From a virus, in IMG/VR virus record IMGVR_UViG_3300008267_001620, positions 1 through 22,917 of that record: DNA of 22,917 bases; one strand, 5' to 3'. The position numbers and the translations under genes were made by a program. Under the pieces are notes generated by a model, which worked only from the letters and a program-made list of their open reading frames with translations, had not been told where the DNA came from and searched no databases. Positions 15,093 through 22,730 of this stretch are shown here, one piece after another (position 1 is the stretch's first letter; the number at the start of each line of letters is the position of its first letter).

Positions 15093-18000
15093 TTAAGATG
15101 TTCCGCATATTGGTAACATAGACCAAAATGACTGATGGGTTAACGATGTACTTGATGTAGCTATTATTGTTCCTCCTGAGTTTCTTAATTCAAGTGTAAA
15201 GTAAACAGGGGTCGCTGAACCGCTTGGCTCAAAATATGTTATTTGACCATTATCAGGGTCTGAATCTGATATAGTCACAGTAGCCGTAGAAGAAGGGAAA
15301 CCTGTAGTTACAGTTATGTAAGACCCAACCGGAGCGTTTGATGTGTTTATACCATATCTAACTGTACAAGCTGCGTTGTCATTACAATTGTTCTCTCTAC
15401 ACTCAGGAGCACCTAAGGATATTGATGCCGCAAAACAGTTTGCTTGACAGTCCTCTAAGGTAGAGTATGTTCCACTTCCATCTCCCGGGTCAACACAACT
15501 TCCACTTTCGCAGTTGTAAGACTCTACCACAGGAGCACCACATCCACAACAAGCATCACTTGCACTTTCGTCAGAATAGCACAATGTTGTTGAAATGGCT
15601 TCTCTTAAATCCCAAATAAAGTACAAGTAATCCTGTAATGCAGGAACTGTAAAGTCTGCAAAATTATTTGTGCCTCCTCCTTGATTAGGTGTAGCCGTAG
15701 TAGCCAACCCTAATAAAGTATTAATATCAGAGGTATTATTACCGTATAAAGTATCTGATGTATAGTACTTAAACTCGTCTGTTGCAGGATTAAATACAAA
15801 TGTGTCCGTAGCAAATTGATTAGTAATTAAACTAACCGTACTACCTGCAGGAGGAAATGCCCCTGTTCCTACAGCACCCGTTGTCACATTATATCTTGAT
15901 ATAAGAGGTGTAGTTGTTCCTGATGCAAACGTTACAAGACTTGACTGTAATGGAGAAGTAAACGCCCCATCTACATATCTGTATTGCGTATGAATGGTAT
16001 CACCTGAGTCATAGTCATTAGTCAATACAACCTGAACGATTGTTAATTGAGCCGCTTGACAACAATCAGCAAGTACACTTAAGATAATATCTCCTGTATA
16101 ATTAATTGTAATTGAAACAGTTTCTACCGATACGTTGTTCTTATCAAATGTTATTACGCCACTTTCAGTTACAAATCCTGTAGTGTCAGTTGTGCCATCA
16201 TACTCAACTACTATCTCAAACTCACCATCTTGGCTTATTGATACAACTGAATAAATGACATCAGCAAGACCAACAGTAGGACCCAAATCAACACAATAGT
16301 TAAAAGACTTAGTCTCTTCCGCTAATGTAGTTAATGTAAATGTTTGAGATATACCACACTCTAAACACTCAATATTGTAAGGCAAGTCTAACTCATTACT
16401 TGATAGAACATACTCGTTCATATAAGGGTCAAATCCACCAAGTTTCTGTGTATTAAATGAAGTGTTAAACTCATCTCTAAACCAAGTTCTCATATTCATC
16501 TCAGAGATAACTTTCAATTGGTCTTGAGCATAAGAGTCTCCTCTTAGTTGAATAACAGCTCCACGCTTTACATCAGTAAAGTATCTGTCATAACCCCATT
16601 GGACATAACTCTCAGGATTAAAGCTAATGCCATACTTCTCGCTACGAGCAATCTGAGTTCCTAATACCTGAGGCACAGAAGCTACAACGCCTCCTCCTGT
16701 GGAGTCAGAGATAAGATTTTTATCAGCCAATACGTATGAAATCTTGTCTTCTTGTAATACAAGGATATCTGTTTGACGACCATCTAATACAAATATCTCT
16801 CCAAATGATGGCTCACAAACTTTATAGTTAAGTAATCCTAAATTAAATTCATTTAACTTATTTACATTTGATTCATCGCTATATACGCCACTGTATGTAA
16901 TATCAGCAAATCTATCTGTTGCTTTATAATCTTGAGCCGAAACGCTTGTTACTCTATTTCCAAAATTAAATGAGTTCCCTACTATAGAGTCTCTAATCTT
17001 ATAACTCTCAGCTCCGTTTCCAAAAGCAAAGCAGTTAAAGAATTTTGTATCTATAATTGCAGGGATGCCTGCCGCAATATTTTGGTCTTGAATATTACCT
17101 AAGTGGTTTCCTCCAACAATAGGTAGTGACAATTCATTTTCAAAAAATACATCAGGTAACGAATCAGATGGAAGAGTCTCAAATATAATTGTCTTATCTG
17201 AACGGAATACTGTTATATTAACTTCAACATTTGAAGCACGAGCATTAGGATAACCTACACCTGTACAAGGAAGCGTTCCCGTTACCATCAATTGTAATTG
17301 ATTGGTAGCTGTATTTCTATAAAATTTATAGTAGTTAATACATAAGTCAGTTAATATATCTCCTGCCGTATTTGTAATACCGGGAATAAATTCATTATCC
17401 GGAGTACATTGTCCTGCTCCTGCATATCTTGTTCCGTCATTTAAAAACTGCTCAACATCATCGCCTATCCACCAATCGTACATATTGTCGTATGCATTTG
17501 ATGAAATAAGCGTTTTCTCCAAAGTGTTTCTTCTTTCCTCACAAGAATTACCAACACCACCTCTACTCTGTTTAATGCTTAATACAATGCGGCTACCTGC
17601 CGGTACATCATAATCAACCCAAGCTGATGTAGCTGTATCAAATCTATTCATTGGATAGTAAAGAATAGGATAAGGTCCTCCTCTTGGAGATGTTTCAGTT
17701 ACCTTTCCCGGAGCTATAATAGCTAATTCATCCTGAACAATGTTAAAGCTGTTAGGATTAATTTTAGCATATACACCTGCAGGTATTGGTATCATTACAT
17801 CAGGGTCCAATGCACTTGGTATTTCCAAGAAGCCTGATGCTTGAGAAGACTTCTCAAGTATAGTTGCATAAACACAAGAACTTGTAGGACCATTAGAATC
17901 AGCCTTAACAATAAGCCTGTCTCCTGCTTCTACCTTACGTGCGTTCTCACCTTCAAGCAAGAAATATGCATTGTTTGTTATAGGGTCTTGAAAGAAAATG

Positions 18001-19943
18001 CTAACGTAAATCGTTTCATAGTTTTCTTCGTCAGGCTTAATAACAAACTTATATCTTGTTGCCCAAGATGGAGGTAATTGAGTTGGCGGTATTACAACCT
18101 GAATAGCATTCTTAAAAGAAGAAAGTCCACAAGGAATGTGCTCTGTATTATTAGGACTTACAAGAGCAGTTGTTGCTCTATTAAAGTCATCCATATATAC
18201 AATACCAATCTCATAGTCACGATTGCTGTGCAAACTTTGTGGGTTTGCAATCTCTTGGAATGTAGCCTCTGCAAATGATACTGCATAGTACTCATAAAAC
18301 GTTTGAGTAGGAGTACTTAAATTATTAACGTATCGCATTGCAGGGAACTGAAGTCCAATTACACTACTTCCGGGACTTGTTACAATACCAACAGGTTGTG
18401 CAACCGCACTAATACCACTTCCATTCTTAATGAATGCATCTAAGTTATTTGGTATCGCACAGTTGAATGCATCTGTAAATGTTGTTCCATTACAAGCATT
18501 GGCTACTGTTTGAATATTTGCAGCAGTACCTACTGCATTTTGAAACTCTACGCTCGTTGCCAACTGATACACTGATGTATATGTAGTAGACAAAAAGAAC
18601 GCAAAGTTTAATCTAACATTGTCTGTTGTTTCGGTAGGGAACGGAGTTTGACCGGTAAACTGAGAGTGAGATATTGTTATCTCTAAGTTGATTGCCGAAC
18701 CTGACACTAATGTCTGTCCTGCTAAATCAAATGTAACTATAGCGTTTGCAATATTTACACTTCCGTTTATTGAGTAGTTTCCTGATTGAAGACCATCGTC
18801 AATATTTGTATTACCAATAGCAGTAGATACTAAATTAGTAGTGTACTCAAATTTAACAGGAGCACCAAATTGGTCTACTAAATCATATCCCTCAACATAG
18901 TTACCATACATTAATCTGTTACCCATAATTGTCTGAGCCTTGGCAAAACGAGGTACGTTATCGTACAATCTTAATAGCTCAGCCTCAGAAAGGATGGTAA
19001 ATATCTTACTGTTTGTGAATGTATATTGATAGTTGGTATTATCTGCAAGACCTAAATTAGCCTTGTCGAGTTTCTCAATAACCTTAATCACATTGCCATC
19101 TGCTCTCTTAAATAATAAGTCTATACCAACTACAAGAGAACTACCTGAATTGTATGTAACAATTGCTGAGTTACAGAAATTGGTCATACCCTCATTTAAG
19201 AAACTCTCGATGCTAAAACTAAATGGATTAGGTACAAACGCAGGTTGAGACCACTGAGAAGTGGCACTATACTCTCCGTCAATGTATCTGTATCTGTAAG
19301 CAAAGCAAATGAATCTTGTGTTCAAAAAGTTCTCTTGACCATTGGTTACAATTGGCTCAACTCCCGGTGATTCTACCGGTGGCTTCTTGATAACAAGTAA
19401 TGACTCTGCTGTGATTTGGTCTACATTACCAATTGGATTAGGGTAGTTCCTTTTGATGTTCATACATCTCGGAGCATTATAATCATCAGTAAAAAAGAAC
19501 AAATCGTTTAATATATCAATACCCGTAACTAAGTAGTTCGGGTTAAAGTTAAGTGTTGTGTTAACGCCACCACCATCGTCAATAGAGACAATGTGGTATG
19601 TTAATATGTTTGATGAAACATTAAAAGAAACAATTAAGTCAAGTTTTCCCGTAGCACCTTCAGAAAAATTTGGGTCGTGCACAAGCCAAAAGATAGTCTC
19701 AGTTGCACTATCTTGAAGTGCCCCAATACATCTTGCTGATGCACTGAGCGGAGTTCCGTCAATATAAGCCAATGAAGTAAGGGGAAGATTCCCCTTTGTA
19801 TTTTCAATTACCCCAACTTCTGAGTTCTCTGTTGAACCCATCCTGATATTCATAGCATCTATATACTCACCCTCAGGCAGTAAACGTTGGTCTACTACCT
19901 TGTTCATCCTACCTGCTATAAAGTTTCTTGAAATATTTGCCAT
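15093..19943 (-). CDS. Large tail nozzle/muzzle-like protein, 1616 aa
   Basis: The N-terminus (RNFIAGRMNKVVDQRLLPEG then EYIDAMNIRMGSTENSEVG) is a strongly conserved motif that I recall from large tail tube/nozzle or muzzle proteins of podovirus-like and crAss-like phages of Bacteroidota. The body is beta-rich and repetitive, compatible with a multi-blade propeller like T7 gp12/P22 gp10. Landmarks are SEKYGISFNPES and LGGFDPYMNEYVLSS (about residue 1168). After about 1180 come beta-sandwich-like segments, a Cys cluster (DACCGCG), the YNC...DPGDGSGTY module at 1476-1503, and a C-terminal domain ending in FWSMLPICGTS. The length is large for the family because of these C-terminal additions. Its ATG lies one base after the preceding stop (TAAAATG), indicating tight coupling to the ring-type protein gene. 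Role inferred from motif and order. Confidence 0.75.
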   Translation of the reverse strand: MANISRNFIAGRMNKVVDQRLLPEGEYIDAMNIRMGSTENSEVGVIENTKGNLPLTSLAYIDGTPLSASARCIGALQDSATETIFWLVHDPNFSEGATGKLDLIVSFNVSSNILTYHIVSIDDGGGVNTTLNFNPNYLVTGIDILNDLFFFTDDYNAPRCMNIKRNYPNPIGNVDQITAESLLVIKKPPVESPGVEPIVTNGQENFLNTRFICFAYRYRYIDGEYSATSQWSQPAFVPNPFSFSIESFLNEGMTNFCNSAIVTYNSGSSLVVGIDLLFKRADGNVIKVIEKLDKANLGLADNTNYQYTFTNSKIFTILSEAELLRLYDNVPRFAKAQTIMGNRLMYGNYVEGYDLVDQFGAPVKFEYTTNLVSTAIGNTNIDDGLQSGNYSINGSVNIANAIVTFDLAGQTLVSGSAINLEITISHSQFTGQTPFPTETTDNVRLNFAFFLSTTYTSVYQLATSVEFQNAVGTAANIQTVANACNGTTFTDAFNCAIPNNLDAFIKNGSGISAVAQPVGIVTSPGSSVIGLQFPAMRYVNNLSTPTQTFYEYYAVSFAEATFQEIANPQSLHSNRDYEIGIVYMDDFNRATTALVSPNNTEHIPCGLSSFKNAIQVVIPPTQLPPSWATRYKFVIKPDEENYETIYVSIFFQDPITNNAYFLLEGENARKVEAGDRLIVKADSNGPTSSCVYATILEKSSQASGFLEIPSALDPDVMIPIPAGVYAKINPNSFNIVQDELAIIAPGKVTETSPRGGPYPILYYPMNRFDTATSAWVDYDVPAGSRIVLSIKQSRGGVGNSCEERRNTLEKTLISSNAYDNMYDWWIGDDVEQFLNDGTRYAGAGQCTPDNEFIPGITNTAGDILTDLCINYYKFYRNTATNQLQLMVTGTLPCTGVGYPNARASNVEVNITVFRSDKTIIFETLPSDSLPDVFFENELSLPIVGGNHLGNIQDQNIAAGIPAIIDTKFFNCFAFGNGAESYKIRDSIVGNSFNFGNRVTSVSAQDYKATDRFADITYSGVYSDESNVNKLNEFNLGLLNYKVCEPSFGEIFVLDGRQTDILVLQEDKISYVLADKNLISDSTGGGVVASVPQVLGTQIARSEKYGISFNPESYVQWGYDRYFTDVKRGAVIQLRGDSYAQDQLKVISEMNMRTWFRDEFNTSFNTQKLGGFDPYMNEYVLSSNELDLPYNIECLECGISQTFTLTTLAEETKSFNYCVDLGPTVGLADVIYSVVSISQDGEFEIVVEYDGTTDTTGFVTESGVITFDKNNVSVETVSITINYTGDIILSVLADCCQAAQLTIVQVVLTNDYDSGDTIHTQYRYVDGAFTSPLQSSLVTFASGTTTPLISRYNVTTGAVGTGAFPPAGSTVSLITNQFATDTFVFNPATDEFKYYTSDTLYGNNTSDINTLLGLATTATPNQGGGTNNFADFTVPALQDYLYFIWDLREAISTTLCYSDESASDACCGCGAPVVESYNCESGSCVDPGDGSGTYSTLEDCQANCFAASISLGAPECRENNCNDNAACTVRYGINTSNAPVGSYITVTTGFPSSTATVTISDSDPDNGQITYFEPSGSATPVYFTLELRNSGGTIIATSSTSLTHQSFWSMLPICGTS
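15435..15518 (-). repeat. Cys-rich module, copy in the nozzle-like protein
   Basis: Codons 1476-1503 encode YNCESGSCVDPGDGSGTY then STLEDCQANC. This is the partner of the module at 14049-14132, and the two DNA copies remain visibly alignable over the whole 84 bases. Confidence 0.8.
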
Positions 19944-20881: not shown

Positions 20882-21820
20882 TTATGGATTTTGTTCTTGT
20901 TGCTCCTTAGCCATATTGAATTGTACAACTTCGGATTCACGAATAGATATACCACAATACTGAAGAATCCTTGTAATTAATTTATACTCATCTTCCGGAG
21001 GTAATTCAAAGTCTTGGTAGTCAGATTGTGATTGGTCAAATACAGGCTCACCATTAGCCAAAGTAATGTATGTCCATTTAGGAACCTTAGGGTATCTAAA
21101 ATAGGTTGCAAGAACCTGACCCTTGTTACTTATGGTTGTAGGGTAGAAAGTCAATTCTTCGCCTTGTAATGCGTAAACAGGGAACTCTATTGTTGGTTTA
21201 GTTAAATTAGAGTTAACCAATAAATTAAGTTTACTATTAATTACCTTTTCTGCTTGATTAATAGTTGAAGAAGAAAATATCGCATAAGCGTTACCTGCTG
21301 CCAAAAATATATTTGAATCTAATTGAATTGCTGTATTACTAAGTACCAATACCACGGTAGATACCAAACCTGTAGTAAGATTTGTAACTACATCTCCTGC
21401 TGAAAGACCATTGGTTAAGAATGTTGCTGTACTATCAACCAATTGCCCACTAACTACAGCAGTATTTGTCCCGGTCTTAAGCGTTACAGGCTTGCATTTA
21501 ACATCCAACAACATATAGGTTAAATATCCCGTAGTTGAAGGAGTAGGCATTGAAAATTTATTAGCTGATATTTTTGAAAGATAATCTGTACGTAAGAAAT
21601 ACTCCAACACTTCTGCAATAGGTTGTTCCATATCGGCATAATCTACGCCTGCTGCTCTTGCATTTTCAGCATTTATAACCTTGTTATAGCTGCTAAAATA
21701 TTCCTCGTAAATTTCCATCTGCGAATTTTGAGCATACAGATTGAAATCAGAAGGTGATACATATCCGTAGTTGTTTTTATTCAACACAGATAATACCGTA
21801 TTTCTTACTGAGTTTATCAT
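20882..21820 (-). CDS. Connector/ring-type or head-completion protein, 312 aa
   Basis: The frame is open to 21862, but the ATG at 21820 (MINSVRNTVLSVLNKNNYGY) is chosen. The 14 residues upstream would be read through the terminator T-run and promoter. The N-terminus (TVLSVLNKNNYGYVSPSDF, LYAQNSQMEIYEEYFSSYN, about 8-45) matches a block common in environmental Bacteroidota phages. It is helical and probably the neck-binding end. The middle (about 95-180) is a small beta domain rich in Thr/Val/Asn, possibly an inserted Ig-like fold. The C-terminus returns to conserved helical sequence (FELPPEDEYKLITRIL...GISIRE). Its place beside the other ring-type protein suggests a head-tail connector. A Bacteroidota-type promoter lies directly upstream. 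Confidence 0.7.
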   Translation of the reverse strand: MINSVRNTVLSVLNKNNYGYVSPSDFNLYAQNSQMEIYEEYFSSYNKVINAENARAAGVDYADMEQPIAEVLEYFLRTDYLSKISANKFSMPTPSTTGYLTYMLLDVKCKPVTLKTGTNTAVVSGQLVDSTATFLTNGLSAGDVVTNLTTGLVSTVVLVLSNTAIQLDSNIFLAAGNAYAIFSSSTINQAEKVINSKLNLLVNSNLTKPTIEFPVYALQGEELTFYPTTISNKGQVLATYFRYPKVPKWTYITLANGEPVFDQSQSDYQDFELPPEDEYKLITRILQYCGISIRESEVVQFNMAKEQQEQNP

Positions 21821-21834
21821 TAGTTCTTTTTTTA

Positions 21835-21864
21835 CAAATATACATAAAAAAAAAGAGGGCACAA
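21835..21864 (-). promoter_or_regulatory. Bacteroidota-type promoter (TTG-N19-TATATTTG)
   Basis: On the minus strand TATATTTG (21842 down to 21835) is a full match to the TAnnTTTG -7 box. TTG (21864-21862) lies exactly 19 bases upstream, inside the loop of the terminator hairpin. A second TTG is 22 bases away. Transcription would start at about 21829, giving a leader of about 9 bases before the ATG at 21820. The promoter would drive the connector and tail genes separately from the capsid genes. Confidence 0.6.
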
Positions 21865-21873
21865 CAAGTGCCC
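21846..21873 (-). terminator. Intrinsic terminator after the head-associated gene
   Basis: On the minus strand GGGCAC, loop TTGTT and GTGCCC (21873 down to 21857) form a six-pair perfect stem, seven with the flanking A-T pair. After two bases a run of nine T follows (21854 down to 21846). It lies about 35 bases after the stop of the gene at 21908-22651 and before the next start, exactly where a terminator is expected. Confidence 0.85.
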
Positions 21874-21907
21874 TTCTTTCTAATCATCAATCAATAATCA
21901 ACATCAA

Positions 21908-22651
21908 TTATCCTAAAACAGCCTCTAACATCTTTAAGGAGTCAATGCCATCATCGCTCTGTAAGTAGTGGGCTACCATCTCATATGGGTCCTCTCCAAA
22001 CGGAACAGACAACATCTTCTTCTTATTGGTAGCGGTATTAAACCACACCTCTTTGTCGCTGTTTCTTAATATCAATAATTTGTTCTCAAAGAATGTACGA
22101 ACCTTAGCCTGAAACTTTAATTCAGGGTCGTTTAATATATTCAAGAACTCTTTAGGGTCTCTTTTAGCAAATACCAAAATGTCACGTCTTAATTCAGCAG
22201 TAGACACGGTAGATGGGTCTTTTCCAAACATAACCCTTGTCAACGTTTCAATTTGGTCAAGTGATAACTGACGAGCTTCAATTAGAGCCTCAACTTCTAA
22301 GTTCAAGTCTTCTACCTCAGCAGCAGCGTCTTTTTCTTTATCTACTTCAACAAATATGTTACCGTTCAATGGGTGATAGTGGAGGAACTCCTGTAATACA
22401 GGGTTGTTCTTTGGAACTCTTAAAAAGCCATCTTCAAAGATGATAGGCTCAATAATAAAGTTTCCGTCTTGTTCGTCCTCAAATGGGGACTTTTGATTCG
22501 TGCAATATCTAAGAGCACGATTAACATTGTTCTTCTCGTCAAACCACATTAGTGGGAAACGAGGGTGATTTCTTGACGCTAACGTATATGATAGCGGATT
22601 TCCTATTTTAAGTCTATAGACTTTATCTACAGGAGTAGTACCTTTTGCCAT
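21908..22651 (-). CDS. Head-associated phage protein, 247 aa
   Basis: The N-terminal 100 residues (VYRLKIGNPLSYTLASRNHPRF, ALRYCTNQKSPFEDEQDG) are strand-rich and recall a conserved protein encoded next to the major capsid gene in Bacteroidota phages. From about 103 to 140 an acidic coiled coil (KEKDAAAEVEDLNLEVEALIEAR) follows. The C-terminal part is helical (AELRRDILVFAKRDPKEFLNIL) and ends in FGEDPYEMVAHYL...KMLEAVLG. It is flanked by two intrinsic terminators, and no promoter box is visible before it. It probably depends on readthrough from the capsid message, so its level may be lower than that of the capsid protein. A head decoration, head-completion or scaffold-like role is possible, and position alone does not decide. 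Confidence 0.65.
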   Translation of the reverse strand: MAKGTTPVDKVYRLKIGNPLSYTLASRNHPRFPLMWFDEKNNVNRALRYCTNQKSPFEDEQDGNFIIEPIIFEDGFLRVPKNNPVLQEFLHYHPLNGNIFVEVDKEKDAAAEVEDLNLEVEALIEARQLSLDQIETLTRVMFGKDPSTVSTAELRRDILVFAKRDPKEFLNILNDPELKFQAKVRTFFENKLLILRNSDKEVWFNTATNKKKMLSVPFGEDPYEMVAHYLQSDDGIDSLKMLEAVLG

Positions 22652-22677: not shown

Positions 22678-22710
22678 AAAAAAAGGAGAGTGTCTTTGAA
22701 GACACCCTCC
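22678..22710 (-). terminator. Strong intrinsic terminator after the major capsid gene
   Basis: On the minus strand GGAGGGTGTCTT and AAGACACTCTCC (22710 to 22685) pair over 12 positions, including one G-U, around a minimal loop; the inner pairs may open to give 4-6 bases. A run of seven T follows at once. It starts about 20 bases after the capsid stop codon and ends 27 bases before the next start codon. Confidence 0.9.
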
Positions 22711-22730
22711 CTATAGATTTTCTTCCTTTA

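Follow-up and report, generated by a model that had tools for sequence, protein, structure and literature searches.

Predicted overlap of a terminator and a promoter at the capsid/tail gene boundary of a crAss-like phage and its relatives

Introduction

Phages need hundreds of capsid proteins for every dozen tail-barrel proteins. The gap between the capsid and tail genes of one crAss-like phage raises the question of whether a single short stretch of DNA could end the capsid message and begin the tail message. This gap lies in a 22,917-nt fragment of a crAss-like phage (IMGVR_UViG_3300008267_001620), which we analysed at full length and refer to as the window. An original prediction placed here a terminator hairpin whose loop would supply the −33 element of the next promoter and whose T-run would lie in the promoter spacer. 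In crAss-like phages, the late genes are probably transcribed by the host RNA polymerase (PMC10136315), and a Bacteroidota promoter of the TAHHTTTG type fits late transcription by that polymerase (PMC6847099, PMC9723704).

Layout of the junction

The junction is the minus-strand gap between the stop codon of a 247-aa gene (21908) and the ATG of a 312-aa gene (21820). Read 5′ to 3′, this strand carries AGGGCAC-TTGTT-GTGCCCT, a single C that separates the stem from T9, an ATG, TATATTTG, TAAAAAAAGAACTA and the ATG of the 312-aa gene. The features, all on the minus strand, are as follows.

22683 to 22712: second terminator, lacking a −7 box, between the end of the MCP-like gene and the 247-aa gene; serves as internal control
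21908 to 22651: 247-aa gene (PHROG 34748, unknown function), final gene of the capsid block and upstream of the unit; in annotated relatives it immediately follows the MCP gene
21856 to 21874: predicted terminator hairpin, from sequence, terminator scan, fold and stem covariation (AGGGCAC 21874-21868, loop TTGTT 21867-21863, GTGCCCT 21862-21856)
21862 to 21864: TTG 19 nt 5′ of the box, two loop bases and one stem base; possible lineage-specific −33 element
21846 to 21854: T9 run, predicted terminator U-tract and AT-rich promoter spacer element (about −16 to −24)
21835 to 21842: −7 box TATATTTG, matching the Bacteroidota −7 promoter element (TAHHTTTG)
21829 to 21830: predicted transcription start, 4-5 nt past the box, from the −7-to-start spacing in F. 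johnsoniae (PMC6847099)
21821 to 21834: A-rich TAAAAAAAGAACTA, 14 nt, from box to ATG; predicted leader of 9-10 nt
20882 to 21820: gene for a 312-aa structural protein resembling a tail barrel; opens the tail block (PHROG 14543; AlphaFold model and Foldseek match)
15093 to 19943: muzzle protein homologue, tail-block marker (Pfam PF25731 crAss_MUZ)

The predicted hairpin, T-run and −7 box are all present, and the T-run does lie in the promoter spacer, such that terminator and −7 box share DNA. The original description, a TTG inside the loop and 19 nt from the box, needs correcting: the TTG with a 19-nt spacer (21864-21862) straddles the last two bases of the loop and the first of the 3′ stem arm, and the TTG wholly inside the loop (21867-21865) sits 22 nt from the box. 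A GTG at 21862, a gene start in the ORF list, was rejected as an artefact of the open frame; relatives conserve the ATG at 21820. Rfam and tRNA scans of the window gave no match; thus, these scans place no known riboswitch or leader RNA in it.

A program scan also found a minus-strand terminator-like site at the hairpin, which folds at −17.2 kcal/mol (z = −4.9; 0 of 200 shuffles were as good). A stable, GC-rich hairpin with a T-run right after the stem has the form of an intrinsic terminator, and we infer that these elements constitute a predicted intrinsic terminator of the capsid block. Alternatively, the hairpin could be only an mRNA 3′-end protector, a processing element or a leader element, leaving the −7 box as the sole real transcription signal; it would also lie within the leader of any readthrough RNA. 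We regard this as very improbable, since nearly every copy has 7-9 T directly after the hairpin, the hallmark of an intrinsic terminator, and the stem covaries from C-G to U-A in 6 of 15 distinct close relatives, with 99% of cells paired.

The site lies between capsid and tail genes

The AlphaFold model of the 312-aa protein (pLDDT 84.5) has the tail barrel of phicrAss001 as its best Foldseek match (7qoj_D, E = 7.5e-06); by its modelled fold, the protein is a tail barrel. The third gene matches crAss_MUZ with 32.6 bits against a cut-off of 27. PDB sequence searches with four structural proteins gave no match. In annotated relatives, the gene order is portal, one gene, MCP, a gene of the 247-aa type, a gene of the 312-aa type, the next structural gene and a muzzle-sized gene, which is the order of crAss-like late operons (portal, MCP, tail-barrel ring proteins, muzzle). 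Thus, the tail-barrel fold downstream, the muzzle family and the gene order of relatives put the site at the capsid/tail boundary, where the original prediction had located it.

The T-run and −7 box are locked together across relatives

We collected approximately 160 loci that carry the downstream gene, from both IMG/VR and cultured phages, and clustered their upstream 90 nt at 75% identity, yielding 61 clusters with protein identities from 100% to about 40%. The −7 box occurs in 61 of 61 clusters (TATATTTG in 47, TATCTTTG in 13 and TACATTTG in one), which share one ancestor and do not amount to 61 independent tests. Relatives without the box, named beforehand as evidence against the proposal, were not found among them. 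A terminator directly adjoins the box in 60 of the 61 (58 by script, and loci L140 and L169 by eye); the sole cluster in which none abuts is that of Maribacter phage Panino, which has extra ORFs upstream. A gap of 2-3 nt separates the end of the T-run from the box in 51 of these 60 clusters, and in six more the T-run overlaps the first T of the box. Hairpins of different subgroups share no sequence relationship (GGGCAC, GCACAGA, GGGGCT and others). In a large group of Bacteroidota viruses, one T-run appears to serve both stop and start, an arrangement kept while the hairpin changed.

The spacing bears on plain compaction, in which a gap of approximately 80-90 nt just fits all signals, so that they touch without functional coupling. 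The summed lengths of the elements (ribosome clearance after the stop codon, hairpin, T-run, −7 box and short leader) do roughly equal the gap, and the repression of terminators near stop codons by ribosomes (PMC4824070) would use up the upstream slack. However, the distance from stop codon to hairpin is the loosest interval (15-55 nt) and that from T-run to box is nearly fixed, which compaction alone would not bring about. We give compaction a substantial chance of being correct, if somewhat short of an even one. The conserved feature is the lock between T-run and box, at the position where ordinary promoters of these phages carry an AT-rich −18 element. The elements, their conservation and this lock are direct observations on the sequences.

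The composite of terminator and box is kept in the cultured phages elemo of Flavobacterium and phi38:1 of Cellulophaga and in Calle_1 (phi38:1 and Calle_1 are Pervagoviridae). In Tenacibaculum phage Gundel_1, terminator and promoter are some 40 nt apart, and in phi18:3, whose upstream genes run the opposite way, the box has no terminator. Since Gundel_1 separates the signals, and Panino and phi18:3 keep the box without the terminator, overlap is not obligatory.

In four clusters (L135, L145, L162 and L174), just 4 nt separate the −7 box from the conserved ATG, compared to 12-24 nt in the others. A start 4-5 nt past the box would give a leaderless mRNA there.

The preceding junction has a terminator and mostly no −7 box

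The junction between the MCP and 247-aa genes (window 22712-22683) has a terminator in nearly all relatives, whereas a −7 box follows it in just three clusters out of 56 (MW202828, elemo and L152). The difference from the 61 of 61 at the tail junction gave a Fisher p of 2e-28, although kinship among clusters overstates their independence. Thus, the −7 box is not a by-product of a terminator. The same control excludes the idea that the composite's terminator simply comes with every junction in the capsid block. The T-run is also shorter at the MCP side, with a mean of 5.7 compared to 7.9 nt at the tail junction (52 paired loci, p = 2e-9, with independence again overstated by kinship); that is, the T-run is longer where the promoter shares it. 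With a terminator and no promoter on its MCP side, the 247-aa gene would depend on readthrough.

A repetitive AAATCAAATTAAAT leader lies 3′ of the MCP-side terminator and before the 247-aa gene (window 22676-22652, minus strand) and is kept in many relatives.

Promoter architecture

TATATTTG is a perfect TAHHTTTG −7 element with no G at the two free positions. In the 22.9-kb window, TTG-N17..23-TANNTTTG occurs at three sites only, with a spacer of 18-20 at just two. A scan for E. coli sigma-70 promoters (49 matches compared to 46.3 in shuffles) was uninformative and was set aside; its promoter type is not that of Bacteroidota.

Promoter-like sites of these phages that lack a terminator have AT contents of 0.76-0.96 at −16 to −23, compared to 0.57-0.75 for intragenic boxes, and T9 at −16 to −24 coincides with these AT-rich positions. 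Ordinary promoters of these phages also show a second AT-rich patch at −25 to −32. At the junction this element, near −28, is absent, as the GC-rich 3′ stem arm fills −25 to −32, and for this reason the promoter could be weak. The −28 AT-rich element is a trait of the average F. johnsoniae promoter and not a strict requirement. That average promoter shows a −18 motif, with the −33 motif much less evident (PMC6847099).

Conservation also bears on whether the loop-borne TTG is an essential −33 element that welds hairpin and promoter together, as originally proposed. In its favour, 13 of 16 close clusters retain a TTG at a spacer of 18-20. In 15 distinct sequences from close relatives, loop positions 2 and 3 differ, whereas the first base of the loop and the TTG are invariant. 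At other boxes of these phages (14 genomes), a TTG at 19-20 nt is commoner in intergenic (25 of 130) than in intragenic positions (36 of 674; p = 1e-6). However, only 1 of 45 distant clusters has a TTG at 18-20, at or below the 3.1 ± 1.8 expected by chance; the other 44 all retain the −7 box, and the terminator persists as well. Relatives that have the terminator and lack the TTG had been named beforehand as a finding that would count against the proposal. The −33 element is also generally weak in Flavobacterium promoters (PMC6847099). The spaced TTG thus holds for the close clade and fails as a general rule, excluding it as a universal −33 element, and we consider the essential role unlikely. 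Instead, a −33 TTG seems to be an optional element in these phages, and the one here may be a real, lineage-specific −33 element gained by the close clade.

Two further sets of boxes are candidates for additional promoters. In the window, TTG-N19-TATATTTG occurs near the 3′ end of a 570-aa gene (10060-10031, minus strand), approximately 80 nt before the start of a 1270-aa gene with a vRNAP-like PHROG match; its −7 box is part of a CAAATATATTTG palindrome. This site is a possible promoter of the cargo/RNAP block. In elemo and phi38:1 (L102 and L415 regions), the gap between the portal gene and the next structural gene holds a −7 box and no terminator, which suggests several host-type promoters along the structural block.

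A model for the shared T-run

We consider it likely that the junction combines a capsid-block terminator with an overlapping host-type (sigma-ABfr, TAHHTTTG) tail-block promoter, with the T-tract shared. The T-run would do double duty, as the terminator U-tract in RNA and as the AT-rich promoter element at −16 to −24 in DNA. Most host polymerases that have transcribed the MCP and 247-aa genes would halt at about 21846-21850. The tail message, with a leader of 9-10 nt, would arise from a separate initiation event at 21829-21830, and one message would end and the next start within 40 bp. We propose that, given separate initiation, the tail genes would not merely be carried along by capsid transcription. 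A polymerase that pauses or terminates in the U-tract, with its RNA ending at 21846-21848, would sit over the −7 box, so that termination and initiation are expected to be mutually exclusive in time. Competition between polymerases is geometrically plausible, and it might, as originally suggested, set the head-to-tail protein ratio. The activity of both signals, the start point, the use of host polymerase and the effect on expression are what we infer from the sequence features.

A different possibility is that the polymerase, after releasing the capsid RNA, remains bound to the DNA and initiates again at the promoter approximately 17 bp ahead, making tail output a set fraction of capsid transcription. 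With E. coli RNA polymerase in vitro, downstream reinitiation follows 37-55% of termination events and would depend on the terminator-promoter distance (PMC6978380), which the composite makes minimal. However, recycling would require sigma retention, the precedent concerns a polymerase other than that of Bacteroidota, and the relative Gundel_1 has its signals some 40 nt apart. We judge such recycling improbable. The junction might go further and act as a natural recycling station, in which tail starts draw on just-terminated polymerases and fix the capsid:tail ratio without a regulator; to this we assign a slightly smaller chance still.

The overlap of terminator and host-type promoter has partial counterparts in known systems. 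Like Bacteroidota sigma-ABfr (sigma-A) promoters, with −33 TTTG and −7 TAnnTTTG (PMC6847099, PMC9723704, PMC7366714), the junction has a perfect −7 box, an AT-rich spacer near −18 and a short A-rich stretch before the ATG. It differs in that the spacer is the terminator U-tract, a GC-rich stem arm replaces the −28 AT patch and the −33 TTG occurs in one clade only. The system of PMC6978380 likewise has a promoter close 3′ of an intrinsic terminator, although as separate units on an engineered E. coli template, whereas the signals here overlap in a natural phage.

The T7 terminator T-phi is the MCP-proximal terminator of T7-like phages. In the parts of the report consulted on the T7-like phage LUZ100, an MCP-adjacent terminator limits downstream transcription and the structural block continues beyond it, and these parts describe no overlapping promoter (PMC10134795). 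In contrast to T7-like phages, which use a phage polymerase, the terminator here is overlapped by a host-type promoter and lies at the capsid/tail boundary, one gene farther from the MCP. A limited literature search, which is not proof of absence, returned no description of an overlapping terminator-promoter in Bacteroidota phages.

The junction points to a dual use of a terminator U-tract, which may also form the AT-rich spacer of a promoter in Bacteroidota; such sites would then escape predictors that regard promoters and terminators as exclusive. The conserved stop-start element of 40 bp lies exactly at the capsid/tail boundary and occurs in cultured phages whose hosts are tractable (phi38:1 and elemo), which makes it testable whether the capsid:tail ratio is set by transcript segmentation, promoter occlusion or polymerase recycling.

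Occurrence beyond this phage group

Across 14 phage genomes, 17 terminators have a −7 box within 24 nt, compared to 0.00 per genome in shuffled genomes. One composite pattern (GGGGC/GCCCC stem) was found in 72 viral contigs, some of them probably chance TATTTTTG matches in other hosts, compared to 20 and 8 for two permuted boxes. Viral composites stand 5′ of PHROG 14543 members, a tail protein, GroEL and several unknown families. Their presence in 72 contigs before several unrelated genes rules out a composite unique to this phage group. A composite unique to phages is refuted by bacterial genomes, where Bacteroidota account for 50 of 80 among the matches listed for one composite pattern. Among these listed matches, the composite lies directly before an ORF in 42 of 50 Bacteroidota, compared to 13 of 30 from other taxa.

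An identical composite, GGGGCCTCGAGCCCCTTTTTTTGTTATGTTTG, stands 5 nt before a 579-aa gene at eight loci (L223, L225, L231, L236, L270, L281, L283 and L299), in genomes titled as Crocinitomicaceae, Flavobacteriales or Chryseobacterium gleum MAGs. In an unrelated phage group (L326, L331, L334, L349 and similar viral contigs), the composite is accompanied by a conserved leader, TATCTTTGAAACAAATAA..., and the genes that follow this leader encode proteins starting MHILTTS or MRVLTTS.
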